From IMG/VR virus record IMGVR_UViG_3300010299_004787, positions 1-28,828 of that record: 28,828 nucleotides of DNA, one strand, 5' to 3'. This DNA comes from a virus. The notes under the pieces are model-generated. The model did not search any database. It saw only the letters and a list, made by a program, of their open reading frames with translations, and was not told the origin of the DNA. Below, piece after piece: positions 12,549-22,121 of this stretch. Positions within the stretch are counted from its first letter, which is position 1. Each line of letters begins with the position of its first letter. A program made the position numbers and the translations under genes.

Positions 12549-13415
12549 TTATACGACAGCGCGACCCTTCATTTGTTCCCAGTCTCGATCTTCTTTTTGT
12601 CGAACTTTTAAATTCTTCTCCCACGTAGCATTAAGCATCAATGGTTCAACACCAACCATTCTTGATACAAACCTAAGAGCATTTAGATCTTTAGGGAAGC
12701 AGTGACCACCATATCCGAATGAACCATCTGGCCCTGGTACTTGCCAGTGGCTACCACCTAGTCTTTCGTCAAACTTTGCTGCCTCGATAACATTATCGTA
12801 AGACATTTCCATTTTTTTGCAGATTTGAAAGATTTCATTTGCAAAACTGACTTTTGTCGCCAAGAAACAATTAGTAACATATTTTACCATTTCAGCTTCT
12901 TTGCTTGAACCGCATAGAATGGGAACATTAGGATAAGCCTTGCTGTAAATGTTTGCAACCTTTTTAGTAGCCTTTGGATCTCCTCCAAGAATGATTCTAT
13001 TCTGATTTTTGAAATCTTCGACAGGACTAGCCTCTCTAAGAAATTCTGGGTTGAAAGTTACTGTGACGTTCTTATATGACGAATCAAGATATTCTGTCAT
13101 CCCAGGCGGAACAGTTGACTTGATTACAGCAATCGTTTCATATTCTGAGCCGAATTTCTTTGCTGCCTCATCTATCTCTTTGATTACAGATTCAACAATA
13201 GAAATATCACACTGTCCATTTTCAAACATAGGAGTAGGAACACAAACAAAAATAACTTCACAGCTATCTACAAGCTCTTCAATACTTTTAACATTGCTTT
13301 TATCTTCGCTGTACTTATCGTATGTGTACACATAGCAAGAATGCTGCATACCAGCATTAAGTGCTCCACCTACAAAACCAGCTCCTACTATTCCAATAAT
13401 ATCTTTTTCTATCAT
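12549..13415 (-). CDS. UDP-glucose/GDP-mannose dehydrogenase family protein, short form
   Basis: A 288-aa nucleotide-sugar dehydrogenase, oxidising the C6 hydroxyl of a UDP- or GDP-sugar to a uronic acid. It has the NAD-binding GxGxxG (G11-x-G13-x2-G16), the VCVPTP element (57-62), IKSTVPPGMT (98-107), NPEFLREA (122-129), the helical dimer core with EMVKYVTNCFLATKVSFANE and the catalytic Cys239 in GYGGHCFPKD. It ends soon after this, whereas bacterial enzymes run to about 390-450 residues with a third, sugar-nucleotide-binding domain; that domain is missing. The start overlaps the stop of the homing endonuclease (ATGA). A relic of another N-terminus, with its own Rossmann motif, lies upstream of the endonuclease at 14057-14152. 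It probably supplies a uronic-acid donor to the glycosyltransferases here. Confidence 0.88.
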   Translation of the reverse strand: MIEKDIIGIVGAGFVGGALNAGMQHSCYVYTYDKYSEDKSNVKSIEELVDSCEVIFVCVPTPMFENGQCDISIVESVIKEIDEAAKKFGSEYETIAVIKSTVPPGMTEYLDSSYKNVTVTFNPEFLREASPVEDFKNQNRIILGGDPKATKKVANIYSKAYPNVPILCGSSKEAEMVKYVTNCFLATKVSFANEIFQICKKMEMSYDNVIEAAKFDERLGGSHWQVPGPDGSFGYGGHCFPKDLNALRFVSRMVGVEPLMLNATWEKNLKVRQKEDRDWEQMKGRAVV

Positions 13416-14053
13416 AAATTCTTTAAAAACTTTCTATATTCTTGCTCTGATTTAAACAAATCTTTTTTGTAAATTTTTCTAAAAATAAAACCCTCTTTTA
13501 AACAAAAAGAGATAGCACTTTCATATTTTACTAAATCTTTTTTAGATTCATATCCTTTTATTTCTTCTATAGCAATATCATTATTTTTGTATACAATTTT
13601 TAAATCAGGATTATAAATCCTGTTTCCATTATAAAAATAAGGAATTTGCAATTTACAATTTTCAATAGAAATTACATTTGTATCAGAAATAAGATCCATA
13701 ATTCTTTTTAGTTCATAAGATGAATGGTAAAAAAGACCATTAAAATAACCAATTTTACCTCTTTGAATGGGGTTTATTTCTCCATTTGCAATTTTTTCAC
13801 TCCTTGTAGTAGACATCTGTTCTCTTGATTTTTTGGAATGTTTTTTTCCAAAAAAAGGATTATCTTCTGATGATGGATATCTTTCTTTTGTTTTTTGACC
13901 AATTTTATCTTTAGATTCTTCAGAGTGCTCCTTTCCAAAAAAAGGATTGTTTTTTGGATTTGAAAAATAACATTTTCTTGTACAAAATTTTCTTCTCTTA
14001 TCTTTTGTTTTAAAAAGATTTCCACACTCCTTACACTCAAATGTATATTTCAC
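13412..14053 (-). CDS. Homing endonuclease: zinc finger, NUMOD3-like repeats, PD-(D/E)XK domain
   Basis: A 213-aa protein of modular homing-endonuclease type. Residues 5-30 form a zinc-finger-like unit (C7, C10, C24, C28). Two NUMOD3-like repeats follow at about 35-52 and 64-81, each starting NPFFGK-x-HS. The C-terminal domain (about 98-213) has PD-(D/E)XK hallmarks: Glu114 in SSYELKR, Pro149-Asp150 and Glu164-x-Lys166 in AIEEIKGYES. It begins with GTG at 14053, overlaps the dehydrogenase start by 4 bp, and is in frame with the upstream dehydrogenase relic, separated by TAA-AAT. The position suggests insertion at the conserved Rossmann motif of the dehydrogenase gene. The nuclease residues are present, so it may still be mobile. 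Confidence 0.85.
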   Translation of the reverse strand: MKYTFECKECGNLFKTKDKRRKFCTRKCYFSNPKNNPFFGKEHSEESKDKIGQKTKERYPSSEDNPFFGKKHSKKSREQMSTTRSEKIANGEINPIQRGKIGYFNGLFYHSSYELKRIMDLISDTNVISIENCKLQIPYFYNGNRIYNPDLKIVYKNNDIAIEEIKGYESKKDLVKYESAISFCLKEGFIFRKIYKKDLFKSEQEYRKFLKNL

Positions 14054-14056
14054 ATT

Positions 14057-14152
14057 TTATTTTATCAAAGTTGTAAAATTTGTAAAAGCAAATCCTTGCC
14101 CAACAACACCAATGGTGTCTAAATCACTTTTTTCATTCCACTTCATATTCAT
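14057..14152 (-). pseudogene. Relic N-terminus of a nucleotide-sugar dehydrogenase
   Basis: A 31-codon reading frame from ATG at 14152 (or 14146) to TAA. Residues 3-21 (MKWNEKSDLDTIGVVGQGF) read as the start of a Rossmann dehydrogenase, comparable to DIIGIVGAGFVGG of the intact gene at 12549-13415. After the GxGF motif the family pattern stops and the sequence becomes AFTNFTTLIK and a stop. The ATG overlaps the end of the sulfotransferase gene by 20 bp, the junction style used throughout this operon, so it was probably the original start of the dehydrogenase gene before the homing endonuclease entered. The copies differ at the DNA level, so this is not a fresh duplication. It may still be translated as a short peptide. 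Confidence 0.6.
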
Positions 14153-14690
14153 AATCAAATTTCTCTATATCCCAAGACCAAAGTTTTCTCAACATTTCTT
14201 TAGATTCATCGTCATAATAATGACTGTAATGTTTTCTATCAGGATTGACATTTATTTTAGGAAGACTTTCTATGCCAGTTATTTTAGCAACTTTTTTCCA
14301 ATCTTCTTCTAAATTTTCAAATCTCAATACTTCATCTACAACCATTTTGTTATTTATAACAAAATGATCTTTATAGCTCCATAGACTCCTTCCATGGATT
14401 ATTCCCATTCCATTTGAATTTTTAGGATCAAGATCTCCTTCTAAGAATTTTTTTATATCTTTTGGGTCCCTTTTATCAAAAAGAATTTGAGAAATATATC
14501 TGTCCCAAGGGTTTCTTACAACAGAAAAAACAAAATAATCTTTGATTATATTTCTATCATAGTCAGCAGCTCTTTTATGTTCGCTTTTGCTACCTTTTGC
14601 AAAATTAAAAACAACATGTTCTATACTTTTTCCAGCACATTTGGTTGGATGTATAAAAACTATTTTTCTTTTACGGCAAACGTTGCGCAT
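14133..14690 (-). CDS. Sulfotransferase family protein
   Basis: A 185-aa protein with the two PAPS-binding signatures of carbohydrate sulfotransferases. The 5'-phosphosulfate loop is HPTKCAGKSIE (residues 14-24, Lys17 in the catalytic position of the P-K-T-G-T-S type loop). The 3'-phosphate site is FSVVRNPWDRYIS (55-67, Arg59 and Ser67). Enzymes of this kind move sulfate from PAPS to sugar hydroxyls. The length is short but typical of phage and bacterial sulfotransferase_2-like proteins. It overlaps the upstream methyltransferase by 20 bp. I see no membrane anchor, so it should act in the cytoplasm on a nucleotide-linked, lipid-linked or protein-linked glycan. It needs host PAPS; no PAPS synthesis gene is present. 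A 24-bp inverted repeat lies within the gene. Confidence 0.85.
   Translation of the reverse strand: MRNVCRKRKIVFIHPTKCAGKSIEHVVFNFAKGSKSEHKRAADYDRNIIKDYFVFSVVRNPWDRYISQILFDKRDPKDIKKFLEGDLDPKNSNGMGIIHGRSLWSYKDHFVINNKMVVDEVLRFENLEEDWKKVAKITGIESLPKINVNPDRKHYSHYYDDESKEMLRKLWSWDIEKFDYEYEVE
14343..14366. repeat. Inverted repeat (11-bp arms, 2-bp spacer) inside the sulfotransferase gene
   Basis: The arms CATTTTGTTAT and ATAACAAAATG are perfect complements around TT. The site also contains TATAAATA on the minus strand. In a sequence this A+T-rich, an 11-bp arm pair is only mildly unexpected, so function is doubtful. Confidence 0.6.
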
Positions 14691-15303
14691 TTTTAACCTG
14701 CTTCTTTAGGTTTATATCCTTTATTTTCTTTTGAAGCTCATCAAGATATCTTTTCTTCATTTTAGCATCAAATGCACATGCAACAGCTTCTGGTCCATCT
14801 ACTAGCCCACCTAAAGGATTCCATCCAGTTGGCTCTCCAACCGGAACCATGAAATCTTTGAAAAAAGAATCGCAAAACTTACGAACACCAGCATTTACTA
14901 AACCATAATCATGATAAATTATGAAAAATGGTTTCTCTGAAATGTTCTTTGATAAAACATTAACTGTATCAAAAAGAACATTGTCATAATCGTGAGCAGC
15001 ATCAATCAAAACAACATCATATCTGTTGAAAGGTATACGTGTACTATTTCCACAGAAAATCATTGCATTCTTGACTTTGTTTTCTTGGAAAAGCTGTGTT
15101 GCCTCATTGAATCTATCTTGACTAATATCAATACCATACATTGACACAAAATGAGGAGACAAAGATGCCATTGTAAATCCCCTATCAAAACCTATCTCAA
15201 GATAAGATGGTTTTCCTGAAGACTTTGATAGCTTTACTATATCTTCTCTTAGCTTGTTTGTAATCGTTGGCTTATGTGTATGTTTGTCTGGTAAATCAAT
15301 CAT
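14671..15303 (-). CDS. SAM-dependent class I methyltransferase
   Basis: A 210-aa methyltransferase. The SAM-binding motif I is YLEIGFDRGF (residues 34-43), the acidic end of strand 2 is YGIDIS (Asp59), and motif IV is DVVLIDAAHDYDNV (96-109), which closely fits the Methyltransf_24-like class. A further FFIIYHDYG strand precedes the C-terminal part. Members of this class in sugar clusters often methylate hydroxyls of sugars, but the acceptor cannot be read from the sequence. It overlaps the carbamoyltransferase end by 8 bp and the sulfotransferase start by 20 bp, so the three modifying enzymes are translated together. The last 35 residues are a basic, helical tail (KKRYLDELQKKIKDINLKKQ). Confidence 0.88.
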   Translation of the reverse strand: MIDLPDKHTHKPTITNKLREDIVKLSKSSGKPSYLEIGFDRGFTMASLSPHFVSMYGIDISQDRFNEATQLFQENKVKNAMIFCGNSTRIPFNRYDVVLIDAAHDYDNVLFDTVNVLSKNISEKPFFIIYHDYGLVNAGVRKFCDSFFKDFMVPVGEPTGWNPLGGLVDGPEAVACAFDAKMKKRYLDELQKKIKDINLKKQVKNAQRLP

Positions 15304-16936
15304 TTTTCTGAACTAAATCCTTTGTCTCTGCAAAATAGAGATAATCAATGTCTGTACCCAAGAAGCAATTCATTGCATCTTGTGGTGTTTCAACAATAGG
15401 CTCTCTGTCATTGAAAGAGGTATTCAATACAAGAGGAACACCTGTTATCTCATAAAATTTACTAATAAGATTATGGTACCACTCATTTTGAGAAGCATTG
15501 ACACTTTGAATTCTTGCTGTTCCATCAAAGTGCTCAATAGCAGGAGCCTCTCCCAGTTTTTCATCACGAACCTTGAATACAAAACTCATATATGGAGAAG
15601 GAAAGAAAGCATCAAACCATTCATGGCCATGCTCTTCCAAAACACTTGGAGCAAATGGTCGATACCACTGCCTATGCTTGACTCGATCATTGATGATTTT
15701 CTTCATGTCAGGAATCGCTGGGTTTGCTAGAATGCTGCGATTACCTAATGCTCTTCTTCCACTCTCTGAGCGTCCATTATAAACTGAAACAATTTTTCCA
15801 TCAGCCAAGTGTTGCGCCACACGATCAAGACCAACATTTAATTCAATATTTATCTTTTCAGTTTTTTCAAGAACTTTATTAATCTCTTCCACATCCCAAA
15901 CTTCTCCAAGATATGAGGAACATGTTTCTGTTCCATGGTAAAATTTTGAATAACGAAGAATGCTATGATAATGATATTGTGCAGCACCAATGTTCAATCC
16001 TCCATCATATGGAACAGGAGGAATGTACATCTTCCATCCTTGAGGACCAAGAAATTGCCAAACCTTTCCCATTCCAACACTATTCAAAGAAACCCCACCA
16101 GAAAAACATAAATTCATAGTTCCAAATCCTTCTGCTCGTGCCATGTTTACAGCACGACCAACAAGATCAAGCAAAAGTTCCTCAGTTACACGTTGCAATG
16201 AAGCTGCTAAATTAAATTTTTCCTGCTCATCTTCAGCAATTTTGCGATATTTATCCAAAAACGGATGAAAAACCTCTTCTTCTGGCGGAACATAAACACC
16301 ACGCTTTGCTCCTGGTGGTGCTGCTACAGCCTTATGGTGACTTGGACCCATCATATCACGCAAATCTGCATAATATTTGTTTGGATCTCCGAGAGCAGCC
16401 ATCGCCATAACACTACCAGCCTGATGGCCTCTTGGATATCCGCTCCAAAGCTTGAAGACCCAACGGGTCAATCTTCCCCAAAGATCTCCAAGACTAAATT
16501 GATCACTAGGAATATCCCAGACCTTTTTCATATCTCTATCTTTGCAGAAATATATTCCACAAGAGATACCACGACCATCGCCTTCCATACCAGCATTGTC
16601 AATTGATATTACAATTGCATCATCAAAAGGCGAAGAAAAATAAGCATGAGCCGCATGGCATAAGTGATGAGAATAAAAATTTAATTTATTCTTTGGCAAT
16701 GTTTTATGAGTATCATAAATTTCGCCATTTGCACGTTCAAGATTCGTATCTGGACATACTGACACAAAATGATCTGCTTCATCTAACGAATGGTTTCTCA
16801 AATAAAGCTCTAAGCTATCTCCACCAGATTCTTTTAAACGAGTATATCGTTCAAATTCTGTATGTTCAACAACCTCACCATCTTCAAGAATACAGTAACC
16901 ACCATCGTGAGCATTATATAATGATACAATTTTCAT
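15296..16936 (-). CDS. NodU/TobZ-family O-carbamoyltransferase
   Basis: A 546-aa carbamoyltransferase, close in length to NodU/CmcH/TobZ enzymes (about 550-600 aa). It uses carbamoyl phosphate and ATP to carbamoylate a hydroxyl, in NodU a sugar of the Nod factor. The N-terminal Kae1/HypF-like domain has VSLYNAHDGGYCILEDG (4-20), the metal-binding H90-H91-x2-H94 region (FYSHHLCHAAHAYFSSPF), VISIDNAGMEGDG (109-121) and LCFSGGVSLNSVGMGKV. The C-terminal domain has GRSESGRRALGNRSILANP, WYRPFAPSVLEEH, VPLVLNTSFNDREPIV and a final DTD-x-L segment. All family blocks are intact. It starts 4 bp after the rhodanese gene and overlaps the methyltransferase. With its neighbours it indicates heavy decoration of a glycan. 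Confidence 0.95.
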   Translation of the reverse strand: MKIVSLYNAHDGGYCILEDGEVVEHTEFERYTRLKESGGDSLELYLRNHSLDEADHFVSVCPDTNLERANGEIYDTHKTLPKNKLNFYSHHLCHAAHAYFSSPFDDAIVISIDNAGMEGDGRGISCGIYFCKDRDMKKVWDIPSDQFSLGDLWGRLTRWVFKLWSGYPRGHQAGSVMAMAALGDPNKYYADLRDMMGPSHHKAVAAPPGAKRGVYVPPEEEVFHPFLDKYRKIAEDEQEKFNLAASLQRVTEELLLDLVGRAVNMARAEGFGTMNLCFSGGVSLNSVGMGKVWQFLGPQGWKMYIPPVPYDGGLNIGAAQYHYHSILRYSKFYHGTETCSSYLGEVWDVEEINKVLEKTEKINIELNVGLDRVAQHLADGKIVSVYNGRSESGRRALGNRSILANPAIPDMKKIINDRVKHRQWYRPFAPSVLEEHGHEWFDAFFPSPYMSFVFKVRDEKLGEAPAIEHFDGTARIQSVNASQNEWYHNLISKFYEITGVPLVLNTSFNDREPIVETPQDAMNCFLGTDIDYLYFAETKDLVQKND

Positions 16937-16940
16937 AAAT

Positions 16941-17228
16941 TTATTTTTCTTCCTTTTCTAAGCTAAGATAATCTTCCATTCCACCAACATTATAAACATT
17001 GGTAAAACCATTTGATTCTAATAATGTTTTAACAAAACCTGCTCTTCTTCCAGATTTACAATAAATGACAATAGACTTATTTTTTTCATTATTTGAAAGT
17101 TCAAGAATTTTTTCAGCAGTTACTTTTAGATGTGGAATATTGACAGCACCATCTATATGACCATCTTCATATTCTTCAACTGTTCTTACATCTAAAAGTA
17201 AACCATTTACATATAATTTAGATTTCAT
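16941..17228 (-). CDS. Single-domain rhodanese (sulfurtransferase-like)
   Basis: A 95-aa rhodanese. It has LLDVRTVEEYEDGHIDGAVNIP (residues 11-32) and the active-site loop CKSGRRA with catalytic Cys59, followed by GFTNVYNVGGMEDY. The length is that of GlpE/PspE-type single-domain enzymes, and no secretion signal is seen. Rhodaneses carry a persulfide sulfur on the Cys and pass it to thiols. Its presence among glycosyltransferases is unexpected; sulfotransferases use PAPS and do not need it. It overlaps the upstream glycosyltransferase by 4 bp (ATGA) and lies 4 bp from the carbamoyltransferase. It may serve sulfur transfer to tRNA or redox, or bind a partner; the sequence cannot say. Confidence 0.92.
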   Translation of the reverse strand: MKSKLYVNGLLLDVRTVEEYEDGHIDGAVNIPHLKVTAEKILELSNNEKNKSIVIYCKSGRRAGFVKTLLESNGFTNVYNVGGMEDYLSLEKEEK

Positions 17229-18208
17229 ATTGAATTTTTTACCTTTCTAAGCATATTTTCAAAATTTGAAAATCCATCTGGTATGAATAGTTCTTGAACT
17301 TTATTAAAATTGAAATCCAATGTCTCAACACTTGATGCATCACGCCAAGTTGCACCTTGGTCAACCATGCAATGATCGCTAAGAAGCTCAGGTGCATAAC
17401 CAACACGTGTTGAAATAATTGGAGTCCTTGTTGCCGCACATTCAAAAACAGCCTGTGGACCTCCCTCATAACGAGAACCAACAATATACAAATCTAACAT
17501 ATTGTAAAAATCATTCAAAATTAAAAAATCAGGAAGTTCCTTATAATGATATCGAACACCTGCATCATATAATCTATTCATTACATATTGACGTCGCCAA
17601 CCACCTAATAAAACTTGAATTTTTGGCTCCATTTTGTGTAAAGCAATAACGAAATTACAAAACACATCAGGTCCTTTTTCCAACTTAGGAGACATCAAAT
17701 CATGACCTTCGGTATCGCGCTGAAAACTTCCAACTAAAAATGCATCTTCTTCAATTTTATAATTTCTTCTAAGTTCATGTTTATTTTTAGGATACCAAAT
17801 AGATTGATTTACCCAAAAAGGAAAACAAAATATTGTTTTATCTGTTAATGGTTCTATTTGTGTTTTAGTCAGTTCACATGGAACATGGTACGCATCCACA
17901 AACTGATCTCGCATTTCAAATTCTTTTTTTGATGCATCATTGAACTTCTCTGGGACTATGTGGTGTACCGTGGCAATGACTTTCTTTTTTGATAAAGAAA
18001 TTGGATCTACTTGTCTCCAACACCAATCAGCAAGCAACCAAATAACATCAGCTTCACTTGCTTTTTTTACAGTTTCAAACTCATTTTTAGTAAAAACTCT
18101 TTCCTTTGTTGTTTGAAGCTTTTTGACCATATCATGTTCAGAATTCCATTCCTTTACAAAACGATCACAAACCCAGTTTTCATTTGGTGGTAATACAAAA
18201 ACTTTCAT
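17225..18208 (-). CDS. GT-B glycosyltransferase (GT4-like)
   Basis: A 327-aa glycosyltransferase. The N-terminal half is short (KVFVLPPNENWVCDRF, then ADVIWLLADWCW, then KKVIATVHHIVPE). The second domain begins FLVGSFQRDTEGHD and contains the donor motif SRYEGGPQAVFECAATRTPII (E-x7-E), followed by STRVGYAPELLSD. QVLLGGWRRQYV provides the usual strand before it. The shortness compared with about 370-400 aa for GT4 is common in phage copies. It overlaps genes on both sides by 4 bp (ATGA). The ATG at 18208 is the only sensible start. Sugar specificity is unknown. Confidence 0.88.
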   Translation of the reverse strand: MKVFVLPPNENWVCDRFVKEWNSEHDMVKKLQTTKERVFTKNEFETVKKASEADVIWLLADWCWRQVDPISLSKKKVIATVHHIVPEKFNDASKKEFEMRDQFVDAYHVPCELTKTQIEPLTDKTIFCFPFWVNQSIWYPKNKHELRRNYKIEEDAFLVGSFQRDTEGHDLMSPKLEKGPDVFCNFVIALHKMEPKIQVLLGGWRRQYVMNRLYDAGVRYHYKELPDFLILNDFYNMLDLYIVGSRYEGGPQAVFECAATRTPIISTRVGYAPELLSDHCMVDQGATWRDASSVETLDFNFNKVQELFIPDGFSNFENMLRKVKNSI

Positions 18209-18447
18209 TTTCCAATTTCCTTAGTTATTACCTTGTAAACTTCCATAAGCATAAAAAGCTCAGAATGTGCGGGATTATCTTCGTCATCATCCCAATCTTC
18301 ATCTTCTTCTTTTTCATCCTCAAAATCTTCACATTCTTTTGTTTCTTTGTCATGACGCAATTCTTCAACAAGTTCCATAATGCGATCTTGTAATTTTGTT
18401 GCATTTTTATATCTTAATTCTGCAAAACTATGTTCGTTGTAAATCAT
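18205..18447 (-). CDS. Small acidic protein, unknown function
   Basis: An 80-aa protein between two glycosyltransferases, overlapping them by 20 bp and 4 bp. Residues 1-35 are probably helical (HSFAELRYKNATKLQDRIMEL), the middle (36-58) is an extreme acidic run (DFEDEKEEDEDWDDDEDN) and the end is another helix (ELFMLMEVYKVITKEI). The two helices around an acidic loop suggest a small hairpin, possibly a partner or regulator of an adjacent enzyme. I recognise no family. The tight coupling on both sides argues that it is a real gene. Confidence 0.7.
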   Translation of the reverse strand: MIYNEHSFAELRYKNATKLQDRIMELVEELRHDKETKECEDFEDEKEEDEDWDDDEDNPAHSELFMLMEVYKVITKEIGK

Positions 18448-19369
18448 AAAAAACCTTCAAATAAGCTTCTGCTACTTTCTCAATGTCTAAATGAATCGGA
18501 TCAACCGACGGCCTTGTATCAGGCAATATAAAACTAGAAAAATCAATAGGATAAGGCGAATCATAATCAGTCAATTCATATTCATACTTTGTTGTTTCAG
18601 GAATTATTATTCCATTTTCTTTTACAATCTCTGATGTTCCTCCGCTATCAGTGCAAATAACTGGGCATCTTTGAGAAAGGGCTTCAACAACAACATTTGG
18701 ACAATGGTCCAGCCAAGCTAAGTGTAAGAAATAATCAGCAGAAGCGTAAAATCTTAAACAAGACTCATGATCTTGTTGGCCTAAATAAAAAACATTTTCA
18801 AGATCGTAGGAATTTAATCCTTCAAAAGTTGCTCCTCCGCCAAGAATATAAAGTCTTGCTTCTTTTTTATCATTTATTAGCTGTTGTCTAATATGCTGAA
18901 ATAAACAAACATTTTCTTTTAATCGTTTTTGAGGATGCCAAAAAGCTGAACAAACAAATATTTTCTCATTTTGATGATTTAGTTCTGGTACTTTATCATA
19001 TGTTTTTAAATTTATTCCATTATGAATAACTGAACAATCAGATCTTTTACCAAAATGAGTTTCGACCATGTGTTTATCAAATTCTGATTGAAAAATCACA
19101 TGGTCGAAAGAAAAATAAGAATCTTTTATTATTCTGTTGTTTTGCTCAAAATTTTCTGACTTAAACCAAATACCATCTAAACGAAGAATTTTAGCCGCAC
19201 CTGGCCAAGCATACGATGTTTGATGAATAAAACTAAGCATTACATCATGGTATTGGTTTTGAGGAACTACATCATGACCCATTTTTACCAATTGACTAGC
19301 AAGTCTTACTCCAAATGAGTTGGGACCAGATGTAGATTTGAAATTTACATTATCTAAACAAACTCTCAT
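18428..19369 (-). CDS. GT-B glycosyltransferase (GT4-like)
   Basis: A 313-aa glycosyltransferase. The start RVCLDNVNFKSTSGPNSFGVRLASQL is the N-terminal strand and glycine loop; CSVIHNGINLKTYD is the interdomain linker; KIFVCSAFWHPQKRLKEN opens the donor domain. The donor region reads AWLDHCPNVVVEALSQRCPVICTDSGGTSEIV: the second Glu is present, while the first acidic position is an Asp, as in many GT4 enzymes. It overlaps the upstream GT by 4 bp and the small acidic gene by 20 bp. The fold call is firm; substrate unknown. Confidence 0.9.
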   Translation of the reverse strand: MRVCLDNVNFKSTSGPNSFGVRLASQLVKMGHDVVPQNQYHDVMLSFIHQTSYAWPGAAKILRLDGIWFKSENFEQNNRIIKDSYFSFDHVIFQSEFDKHMVETHFGKRSDCSVIHNGINLKTYDKVPELNHQNEKIFVCSAFWHPQKRLKENVCLFQHIRQQLINDKKEARLYILGGGATFEGLNSYDLENVFYLGQQDHESCLRFYASADYFLHLAWLDHCPNVVVEALSQRCPVICTDSGGTSEIVKENGIIIPETTKYEYELTDYDSPYPIDFSSFILPDTRPSVDPIHLDIEKVAEAYLKVFYDLQRT

Positions 19370-20292
19370 GGTAATTTCTCAGAAGGTCCATCTTCTTCCA
19401 TAATTTTCCACTGACTATATTTCATTTGTTCGCCATCTGGTGTTGTTGCTATCTTCCAACCCAATGGCCGTGCAATTTCCATAAAAGAAACAGGACCAAC
19501 AGAAGAATCATTCAATTGATCCATCATTTCTTTGGTCAAATTCTTTTCATAGTAAAGAGGACCCACAGGGTCTAAGTAATGACCAAATCTTCTATTCTCA
19601 CGAATAAATGCATAACCACCTCTAGGATCATTCCAAATAGAAAGCATTATAGGAGAATGAATTCTATAAACTTGTCCATTTGGAAATTCTTGTTTAAATT
19701 TTTCAGCATACCAAGTTTCAGAACGTCCCCAATATTCTTTCTTAGTTGGCCATTTTACTGGATATTTTCCTATTCGATCATACACATCTCTTTTATAGAT
19801 ACCAGTAGTTGGATAATGTCTGTCCAACCTACGCCAATATTTTCTTCCGTTATAAAATTCTGGTGTTTGCTGTACTGTATCTCTCATTGTTTGCTTTCGA
19901 ACACCATAAATTTCCAAACAATGAACATCTTTCATTTGTTCAAAATCATCAATTAGCGTCCAAAGAACATCACCATTTGCAATAAACTGACCATCATCTT
20001 GAAGAAACATCAAATACTTGCTTTGAGAATTATTTAAAAGCATGTTTCTTCCAATATACTCATCATTAATCCAATCACGCTCAAGATCATGAGACATGCC
20101 AACTACATTGATTTTATCTTCAAACATCATCTGTCTCATGTAATCTTGCATCCCAGGCTCAGTTGACCACATGTCACAGACTAATATCTCGACTCTGTCA
20201 TCATCAAAAAATTCAGAGAGACTCTCAATAAGAGCTTTTGTGTACTTGAGACGATTACATGAAGTAATGCATATGCTAAGCAATGGTTTCAT
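19366..20292 (-). CDS. GT-A glycosyltransferase (GT2-like)
   Basis: A 308-aa GT-A enzyme. I start it at ATG 20292 rather than TTG 20298. The N-terminal strand and loop LLSICITSCNRLKYTKALIESL is typical of family 2, followed by VEILVCDMWSTE and the metal-site region YLMFLQDDGQF, where QDDG takes the place of the usual DxD. An aromatic stretch (KYWRRLDRHYPTTGIYKRDVYD) and a long acceptor domain follow. No transmembrane helix is present, so it is not a processive membrane polymerase. Its 5' end lies 20 bp downstream of the previous GT; its 3' end overlaps the next by 4 bp. Fold is confident, specificity unknown. Confidence 0.85.
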   Translation of the reverse strand: MKPLLSICITSCNRLKYTKALIESLSEFFDDDRVEILVCDMWSTEPGMQDYMRQMMFEDKINVVGMSHDLERDWINDEYIGRNMLLNNSQSKYLMFLQDDGQFIANGDVLWTLIDDFEQMKDVHCLEIYGVRKQTMRDTVQQTPEFYNGRKYWRRLDRHYPTTGIYKRDVYDRIGKYPVKWPTKKEYWGRSETWYAEKFKQEFPNGQVYRIHSPIMLSIWNDPRGGYAFIRENRRFGHYLDPVGPLYYEKNLTKEMMDQLNDSSVGPVSFMEIARPLGWKIATTPDGEQMKYSQWKIMEEDGPSEKLP

Positions 20293-20312
20293 GAGCAAAT
20301 CATATCACAAAG

Positions 20313-21251
20313 TTAAGATACTTTGCCTTCAATAATATCAAAGTATCTGTTTGCACAATCTTTCCAAGATATATCCCAGCCTTTTTTAATTGGCCAAAGT
20401 TCTTTTTGTTGTATCTTTGAAATAAGTTCCTCAAATGATGAATACACAGCACCAGGACTGTTTGCGAATTCAACTGCACCGCCTCCATCTTTATGAACAA
20501 ATGTAGGCAAGTGACATGCCAAAGCTTCAATTATATGATTTGGACCAGGATCCCATCGCGAAGCACTCACATAAACACTTCCAAATTTCAATTCATCACC
20601 AAGTGCTTTTCCAAACAAAGGATCAATTACTATCGCATTTTTAAACTTGTCTTGACTTCTTCCAATATAAACAAATTCATAATCATTGTTGTTACCAACC
20701 CATTCATCAAGCTTGTCGTAAATATCAAATCCTTTTAAGTCATTGCTTGACCAATGATGAGCGATAATTTTAATTGGAACATTTAATGCTTTATGTAAAT
20801 TGTTTTTTACATATTTTGTATCAAAATTCAAAGGACTAAAATGATCTTGATCAACTCCATTATATGCAACATGTTGTTCTTTGCAATTCCATGATTTTTC
20901 AAAATAATCTTTCATCCAATTAGAAACAAAAACTGTAGCATCAGTAAAGTTAGAACAAGAAACCAACATTTTATCCATATCATGGGTTGCTTTTCTTGCA
21001 TCGCATTCGTTAACTCTATGAACAACTCTTGTTTGTGGATTTCTAGATTTATAGAATGAAATTTCGTTCATAGCAATCCCCAAATTATCATATCTGGAAT
21101 CTATCATCAAAATCGCATCTATGTTTTGTTGAAGACTATGAACAACTTCGTAACCACGGCTTTCTGCATATTCACATATCGCTTTTACAAAGAGATTTCC
21201 GCCTCCCCATGGTCCTCGTACCGGTTTCCTGTTCATTAGAAGCTTTTTCAT
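20313..21251 (-). CDS. GT-B glycosyltransferase (GT4-like)
   Basis: A 312-aa glycosyltransferase from ATG 21251; a TTG at 21296 would add 15 residues but they overlap another possible frame. N-terminus: MKKLLMNRKPVRGPWGGGNLF, a glycine-rich nucleotide-sugar loop. DATVFVSNWMKDYFEKS and HVAYNGVDQDHFSP form the linker; KIIAHHWSSNDLKGFDIYD starts the donor domain. The donor motif is degenerate: ASRWDPGPNHIIEALACHLPTFV has the second Glu but Asp in place of the first. It ends 20 bp before the next GT. The length is short for GT4 but complete. Specificity unknown. Confidence 0.85.
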   Translation of the reverse strand: MKKLLMNRKPVRGPWGGGNLFVKAICEYAESRGYEVVHSLQQNIDAILMIDSRYDNLGIAMNEISFYKSRNPQTRVVHRVNECDARKATHDMDKMLVSCSNFTDATVFVSNWMKDYFEKSWNCKEQHVAYNGVDQDHFSPLNFDTKYVKNNLHKALNVPIKIIAHHWSSNDLKGFDIYDKLDEWVGNNNDYEFVYIGRSQDKFKNAIVIDPLFGKALGDELKFGSVYVSASRWDPGPNHIIEALACHLPTFVHKDGGGAVEFANSPGAVYSSFEELISKIQQKELWPIKKGWDISWKDCANRYFDIIEGKVS

Positions 21252-21351
21252 ACGTAAACATTCTACCACAAGATGAGCTTGGATACATTTTCTCAACCCA
21301 TTCTATCGGAACTAAATCAAAACTAATTAATTTAAAATCTTTATCAATCAC
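21172..21351 (-). CDS. Possible small protein overlapping two glycosyltransferases
   Basis: A 59-codon frame from GTG at 21351 to TGA at 21172. It begins inside the last codon of the GT2-like gene and ends inside the start of the next GT. Its first 30 residues (DFKLISFDLVPIEWVEKMYP) look protein-like and cover the 96-bp gap left between the two GT genes. The rest shares DNA with the downstream GT and is less convincing (TGTRTMGRRKS). It could be a real small protein or a GT2 C-terminus moved out of frame. Evidence is weak. Confidence 0.3.
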   Translation of the reverse strand: MIDKDFKLISFDLVPIEWVEKMYPSSSCGRMFTYEKASNEQETGTRTMGRRKSLCKSDM

Positions 21352-22121
21352 TCCACAAATCCTCTTTTGCGTAAGAATTCACTTTCTGAAAGTTGAAACT
21401 TTGCATCATCTGTTTGAAATGTTTCGGGGCTCATATCAATTGTGTAATAATAGGTTACGGTTGGAAGAAACACTCTAACATTTGCCTTATGAAGGACTGG
21501 CAAATAAATGGCCTGGTCCCCAGCACGTTTAATGTATTCACCGTCAGATCCACGAAAATTTTCATCATTTACATCAGTTATCAAACTTTTTCTAAATGTT
21601 TTTAAGTGAGAAGTTACCCATGGATGTTGGTAAACATTCGCTCCATCAGGAAGGCCTTGAGAAATGTTTTGCCAAGTATCTGCCCAACGATGTGCTGTCC
21701 AAAGACATTCAGCTTTTGCTTGTTCATATCCAACATTAATATCCTGTAAAGCACATAGATTACAAAGAAAATCATCACCATCAAGACGGCAAATAATATC
21801 ATCTTCTTCAACATGCTCAGAACGAATCATTGAAAGAACATTCTTAACTTCCCAAAATTTTTCATCATTTTTCCAAACAATAATTTTTGACTCTTCTGGT
21901 TTATACAGGTTTTCTGTAAAATCAACACCAAAAATATAATATGGAATATTGTTTTTTCTTGAAACTTCTCTAATTTTCCTAACTGTATTGTCCGTACTCA
22001 TGTCATCACGAATCAAAACAACCCAGTTATCATAAGTTTGACAAAAAACGCTCATAAGCATGCGTTCAATTGTTTTTTCTGCATTATAACAAGGTACAAC
22101 AAAAACAAATCTATTATTCAT
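21348..22121 (-). CDS. GT-A glycosyltransferase (GT2)
   Basis: A 257-aa family 2 glycosyltransferase. It shows all the GT-A landmarks: FVFVVPCYNAEKTIERML (residues 5-22), WVVLIRDDMSTDNT (33-46) for nucleotide binding, and the metal-binding DxD in CRLDGDDFL (about 110-118). The acceptor part holds WTAHRWADTWQNIS, PWVTSHLKTFRK and a probable catalytic region NFRGSDGEYIKRAGDQA. No membrane segments. It follows the tandem beta-rich protein gene by 29 bp. This is one of the clearest GT calls in the window; the sugar is unknown. Confidence 0.92.
   Translation of the reverse strand: MNNRFVFVVPCYNAEKTIERMLMSVFCQTYDNWVVLIRDDMSTDNTVRKIREVSRKNNIPYYIFGVDFTENLYKPEESKIIVWKNDEKFWEVKNVLSMIRSEHVEEDDIICRLDGDDFLCNLCALQDINVGYEQAKAECLWTAHRWADTWQNISQGLPDGANVYQHPWVTSHLKTFRKSLITDVNDENFRGSDGEYIKRAGDQAIYLPVLHKANVRVFLPTVTYYYTIDMSPETFQTDDAKFQLSESEFLRKRGFVE

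Follow-up and report, generated by a model that had tools for sequence, protein, structure and literature searches.

The DNA analyzed here (termed the window) consists of one viral record 28,828 bases long, a single metagenomic contig of an uncultured phage whose gene content includes tail genes together with a cluster of glycan genes. At the locus under study, the genes run on the minus strand in the order methyltransferase (15303-14671), sulfotransferase-like gene (14133-14690; Pfam Sulfotransfer_2, E 7.6e-10), a short ORF carrying a second dehydrogenase N terminus (14057-14152; termed the relic), an endonuclease ORF (13412-14053), an intact UDP-sugar dehydrogenase of 288 amino acids (12549-13415; Pfam UDPG_MGDP_dh, E 4.4e-26, and UDPG_MGDP_dh_N, E 2.9e-24) and, last, a Cas4-like PD-(D/E)XK protein (12541-11735). 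The glycan cluster (14671-22121) contains the methyltransferase and sulfotransferase genes, a carbamoyltransferase gene, a rhodanese domain and several glycosyltransferase-like ORFs.

The relic ORF (MNMKWNEKSDLDTIGVVGQGFAFTNFTTLIK*) begins with an ATG at 14152, ends with a TAA at 14059-14057 and comprises 31 codons that read MNMKWNEKSDLDTIGVVGQGF-AFTNFTTLIK*. It follows the dehydrogenase N terminus as far as the Rossmann GxGF motif (...DLDTIGVVGQGF) and then runs through 10 nonhomologous codons to its stop, and is therefore a dead end. The stretch homologous to the intact gene (DTIGVVGQGF) occupies 30 nt at 14090-14119, and from the end of homology to the endonuclease start lies an unrelated A+T-rich stretch (14054-14089) made up of the 10 codons, the TAA and an AAT, in which there is a promoter-like match of chance quality. 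The endonuclease GTG at 14053 is in the same frame as the relic and two codons past the relic stop (TAA-AAT-GTG). At the other end of the ORF, the endonuclease TGA (13414-13412) and the dehydrogenase ATG (13415-13413) run together in an ATGA overlap (13412-13415). The intact, or 'restored', dehydrogenase N terminus that starts there (MIEKDIIGIVGAGFVGGALNAG; 13350-13415) has no G or C at the third position of codons 2-22. Further upstream, the end of the sulfotransferase gene (stop at 14135-14133) is overlapped by the relic start codon. Each start in this chain thus overlaps or directly trails the preceding stop, which is suggestive, though not proof, of coupled translation. The coordinates, frames and overlaps agree with the original prediction, which had placed a dehydrogenase relic upstream of, and in frame with, an endonuclease and a fresh intact start downstream of it. 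Two terminator-like hairpins were also noted, at 13606-13622 and 13764-13788, on the plus strand and hence opposite the endonuclease (3 sites found versus 0.3 expected in shuffles).

The endonuclease is 213 amino acids long and combines a CxxC zinc finger, NUMOD3 repeats (E 1.7e-12) and a C-terminal PD-(D/E)XK domain. It matches phrog_15427 (endonuclease) with an E value of 1.4e-14. Candidate catalytic residues are E114, P149-D150 and E164-x-K166, and D150 and E164-x-K166 align across seven relatives, including those from Bacillus phage Moonbeam, T4-like phages and phiXF1. The structure model has a mean pLDDT of 54 and is usable in its C-terminal domain alone; for this low-confidence model, the top Foldseek matches were the PD-(D/E)XK members Bax1, ACE1 and TnsA (E 0.006-0.03), and Cas4-like nucleases were matched as well. 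The motif alignment and the fold search both support the earlier assignment to the PD-(D/E)XK superfamily, with a predicted catalytic D...E-x-K on the core fold and with NUMOD3 present too. With a nuclease domain and DNA-binding modules outside any intron or intein, the protein is predicted to be a homing endonuclease of the free-standing type. At 0.13, its GC3 lies below that of the dehydrogenase (0.29), and a pattern scan of cellular genomes returned no relatives.

The status of the relic was assessed with an N-terminal profile of 15 columns built from 72 distinct phage dehydrogenases from viral contigs, the window sequence being left out. The N-terminal motif of this family, [IVL]G[IV][IV]GQG[FY]VG, is nearly fixed, with Q present in 67 of the 72. 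In all six frames of the window, the top match to the profile was the relic (18.6 bits, E 5e-5), the second was the intact N terminus (15.0 bits, E 7e-4) and the third-best reached only E=3. The relic outscored the intact start even though its match stops after GF, and a chance origin of the similarity is excluded. Upstream of the dehydrogenase in 86 endonuclease-free related loci, where up to 1.5 kb was searched, no second N terminus scored above 5.4 bits, and the extra N terminus is thus tied to the endonuclease-bearing locus. Alignment of the relic with the intact start confirmed that their homology ends after GF, so that, as predicted, the similarity of the relic stops just past GxGF and the motif is repeated in the intact gene. 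The homologous 30 nt (relic 14119-14090, intact 13403-13374) lie 716 bp apart and are identical at 18 of 30 bases (60%), and five of the seven codons that specify the same residue are spelled differently. A recent tandem duplication is therefore excluded.

A 322-kb relative of the same lineage and with the same gene order (L001) provided an endonuclease-free comparison. Identity to the window is 68% for the dehydrogenase, 72% and 78% for tail genes and 68% for the Cas4-like gene, and in a tree of the gene body the core of the window dehydrogenase is sister to that of L001 (support 100/94). The L001 dehydrogenase is uninterrupted, has a single N terminus and begins MKDIIGIIGQGFVGS. The gene lies in the same neighborhood as in the window but without the endonuclease, to which the whole 322-kb record showed no match. 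The same record gave no match to the sulfotransferase either, so that this gene may also have been acquired and a larger import is possible. Between the glycosyltransferase and the dehydrogenase, the gene content of the window differs from that of L001.

The two N termini were compared with that of L001 to ask which start is native. An endonuclease-free relative already beginning like the intact gene would, under the original prediction, count against an insertion, and L001 goes half of that way, sharing DII with the intact start and GQGF with the relic. DIIGI is common to L001 and the intact start with 15/15 bases identical (GATATTATTGGAATA), where the relic has DTIGV; GQGF is common to L001 and the relic with 11/12 bases identical (GGGCARGGATTT). 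At residue 12, the intact gene has A, which occurs in none of the 72 relatives, while the relic, L001 and 67 of the 72 have Q. This odd residue could be ordinary drift, since the window dehydrogenase departs from the family at 9 of 88 conserved columns. In a likelihood comparison over eight columns on the fixed body tree, the relic as native start was favored by only 2.7 log units, and the preceding T/I column, which lies outside those eight, points the opposite way, to the intact start as native. Silent sites are saturated at the distance of L001, so that the balance only tilts to the relic. Sequence comparison thus only favors the reading in which the relic is the native start and the intact N terminus was brought by the endonuclease.

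GC3 was considered as a further indicator. The value is 0.33 for the relic, 0.31 for the dehydrogenase body and zero for codons 2-22 of the intact gene; such a run is not rare, as 146 of 7326 18-codon windows (2%) in the other genes of the window are also zero, and GC3 was rejected as too weak to prove that the intact start is foreign. Five contigs (L148-L152) form a separate short UDP-sugar dehydrogenase clade whose start, IGIVGAGFVGGA, agrees with the intact start of the window at 12/12 residues, possibly by coincidence. They were rejected as the donor and are not used as evidence, because they were picked by that very pattern, lie two residues from the native IGIVGQGFVGSA type and are matched by L001 in sharing DIIGI with the intact start.

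The preferred interpretation of these data, with slightly better than even confidence, is that an endonuclease segment invaded the dehydrogenase at its GxGF codons, brought a diverged N terminus with it and stranded the old one. A free-standing gene for the zinc-finger/NUMOD3/PD-(D/E)XK enzyme would have entered the 5' end of the dehydrogenase at the Rossmann GxGF codons, leaving 21 codons from the start of the old gene, upstream of the break, as a dead-end ORF. At its far end the incoming segment would carry a fresh start codon, which overlaps the endonuclease stop, followed by a whole N terminus spelled differently from the old one; once this was joined to the old gene body, the dehydrogenase would stay functional and the original site would be gone. 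It could be that the endonuclease itself cut at this place, and that in the donor the endonuclease immediately preceded a separate dehydrogenase allele, repair from that donor then giving the hybrid. The 3' side would have been joined by homology within the gene, and the 5' side nonhomologously, end to end. On this route the old start would have remained up to the cut because the 5' side offered no homology. The dehydrogenase would now be translated by termination-reinitiation, and its new start would resist cutting. If this replacement took place, an endonuclease-free relative should read ...DLDTIGVVGQGFVGGALNAG... / ...DTIGVVGQGFVGGALNAG... without interruption. The uninterrupted gene (...DTIGVVGQGF-VGG...) that the original prediction had looked to for confirmation was sought with the pattern DTIGVVGQGFVG, which had no match in 2.9 million viral contigs; a search with the joined relic-body peptide gave no relative in genome contigs and nothing but chance matches in phages. 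The earlier idea of a mobile ORF that carries a substitute for the gene end it displaces stands as to arrangement, with an endonuclease splitting a relic from a complete second N terminus, single-copy relatives and neither intron nor intein, while the proposed direction of the replacement is no more than favored.

The main rival to replacement, itself judged rather unlikely, is that the MIEKDIIGIVGAGF start is native, as is the rest of the dehydrogenase, and that a block of relic and endonuclease, perhaps with the sulfotransferase, was imported from another phage, the relic being the start of the donor's dehydrogenase carried along as flank. L001 lacks both the sulfotransferase and the endonuclease, as this reading would have it; the relic start overlaps the sulfotransferase stop in operon-like fashion, the sulfotransferase is A+T-rich (GC3 0.18), and the intact start has DII, DIIGI and the 15/15 bases in common with L001. 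However, the relic fits the family better and retains the Q found in L001, its GC3 of 0.33 resembles that of the dehydrogenase body and not that of the sulfotransferase, and a sulfotransferase beside such a dehydrogenase was found in no other phage. An import of this kind leads one to expect endonuclease-free close relatives beginning MIEKDIIGIVGAGFVGG. A less probable origin is a remnant of a tandem paralog, the endonuclease having entered the first of two adjacent dehydrogenases and the remainder of that copy having been deleted. Both N termini do belong to one family and are 60% identical in DNA, but a second N terminus lies upstream in none of the 86 relatives, and tandem copies within ~ 3 kb occur in none of the related loci.

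It is very improbable that the assembler joined two strain variants of the locus. The structure is seen in one metagenomic contig and no near-identical second record was seen, but the gene order, the ATGA overlap and a complete endonuclease between the two starts form a coherent operon, and a join of variants would more probably break reading frames. Least credible of all, and extremely doubtful, is that a self-splicing intron or split intein rejoins the parts at the RNA or protein level, the endonuclease being its passenger, a reading that draws on the T4-like phages described below, where endonuclease relatives lie between gene 17 halves resembling split-intein carriers. For a group I or II intron, Rfam matches in 13000-14700 at E<=5 were limited to chance families, the window as a whole had no match at gathering thresholds, and there is room for a ribozyme only in the ~ 36 nt before the ORF and none after it; an endonuclease encoded in a group I intron was rejected for want of a ribozyme core. 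For an intein, no motif was seen by eye in the relic tail AFTNFTTLIK or at the dehydrogenase start, and a split intein or fractured gene was likewise rejected because the downstream ORF is complete alone. Under splicing, the complete Rossmann start of the intact ORF would be unneeded.

The sole full-length relative of the endonuclease that was found is in Bacillus phage Moonbeam (KM236246), upstream of RNaseH, and is 31% identical. Comparison with phage Eldridge, which is without the endonuclease, placed the Moonbeam insert 2 nt before the RNaseH ATG, the junction being GGATGAATAA|ATATGCGC in Eldridge and GGATGAATAA|GCATTG...GGAGAGTTAATAAATGAGG in Moonbeam. As the insert sits exactly at the RNaseH start, the element supplies its own ribosome-binding site for the displaced gene. 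As in the window, the endonuclease and the gene after it show a stop/start overlap; unlike the window, Moonbeam has no relic and the first RNaseH codons are not clearly replaced. A second replaced N terminus was accordingly rejected for Moonbeam, in which the first 30 nt share 17-19 of 30 bases with endonuclease-free relatives, against 20-22 between those relatives.

More distant relatives (aligned regions ~ 30% identical, E 8e-7) separate the two parts of terminase gene 17 in the T4-like phages HY03, TG1, PspYZU05 and SEA1. Gene 17 was found in two ORFs with the endonuclease relative between them in five records, at L121 1854-2453, L122 1803-2402, L123 1851-2450, L124 1303-1902 and L125 1803-2402. 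By eye, the ORF ends resemble a split intein (ECVAKDTKVT... and ...NNVESHNCAF), and this is apparently a 'fractured gene' with a split intein, a name from Dassa et al. 2009 (cited in PMC10448857). The endonuclease 3' end again overlaps the downstream gene 17 part, as in the window, but the gene 17 parts would reconnect via intein halves, and the window dehydrogenase via a duplicated N terminus. In phiXF1, the relative precedes another gene with an ATGA overlap. From its positions in Moonbeam, gene 17 and phiXF1, this kind of endonuclease is found repeatedly at genes or inside them, and its 3' end overlaps whatever piece follows.

Homing endonucleases spare their hosts by residing in introns, inteins or intergenic gaps. 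More tentatively than the invasion itself, and with rather less than even confidence, it is proposed that the segment at the dehydrogenase is a cassette bringing its own repair for the gene it breaks, in the form of a recoded, cut-resistant N terminus and a start codon, and is a 5'-end phage counterpart of fungal mitochondrial mobile ORFs. If true, this would add to introns and inteins a third means by which a homing endonuclease can live in mid-gene. Such a phage example, at a 5' end, would also open the process to tests in a fast genetic system, illustrate how elements of this sort give rise to hybrid genes and account for odd truncated N-terminal ORFs beside phage endonucleases.

Fungal mitochondrial mobile ORFs (mORFs) with substitute C termini are described for atp6 of Allomyces macrogynus and for atp6, atp9, cox2 and nad3 of Glomus sp. 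(PMC3630166). Native and substitute DNA are 63.5% identical in Glomus atp6, within a fungal range of about 60-80% (PMC3630166), and the value here is 60%. In both settings, an endonuclease ORF lies between two diverged versions of one gene end, in the fungi a substitute and the displaced native one, and may share the reading frame of the adjoining gene piece. In the fungi, however, the 3' end encoding the C terminus is replaced, by LAGLIDADG or GIY-YIG elements, and the native end is traced to close relatives; in the window, the N-terminal end is duplicated, the enzyme is of PD-(D/E)XK type and the native end is not so traced. The original prediction, that the arrangement is known from fungal mORFs and unusual in phage, holds for the shared logic, with the qualification that the fungal cases are at 3' ends; a spare copy of the displaced gene end was found described only for fungal mitochondria, and a limited search of open-access literature found no phage precedent for a substitute gene end.

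The nearest phage systems are the T4 free-standing endonucleases SegF, SegG and MobE, for which intronless homing is reviewed in PMC2988022. As in that account, the window has an intronless ORF between genes that overlaps its neighbor, and co-conversion of the flank to a resistant allele would be expected; the T4 enzymes differ in being GIY-YIG or HNH and in cutting hundreds to thousands of bp from their own gene. A stranded copy of a displaced gene start was not found in the passages of that review consulted. The same source lists genes split by phage endonucleases, namely Aeh1 nrdA/mobE, T4 gene 39-60/mobA and phage 25 gene 43 (seg43). There, as here, the endonuclease is inserted at a functionally critical part of the gene, but both pieces serve as separate subunits, whereas in the window the downstream gene is whole, with a second N terminus of its own, and upstream there is only a dead-end ORF.

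Other homing-type nucleases were seen at gene junctions. A second homing endonuclease gene of the window, at 1276-1947 on the minus strand, is GIY-YIG with NUMOD1/NUMOD3 and fits neatly into the junction of a baseplate wedge gene with the tail gene that follows. There is no relic at 1276-1947, and in L001 the same two tail genes are adjacent without the GIY-YIG gene. Its own ATG overlaps the upstream stop and its own stop overlaps the downstream ATG at 1286. In Bacillus phage Mater (L128, 1-317 and 301-843), the RNaseH gene that carries the Moonbeam endonuclease is overlapped at its start by an unrelated GIY-YIG enzyme, and two nuclease types are thus found at one gene start.
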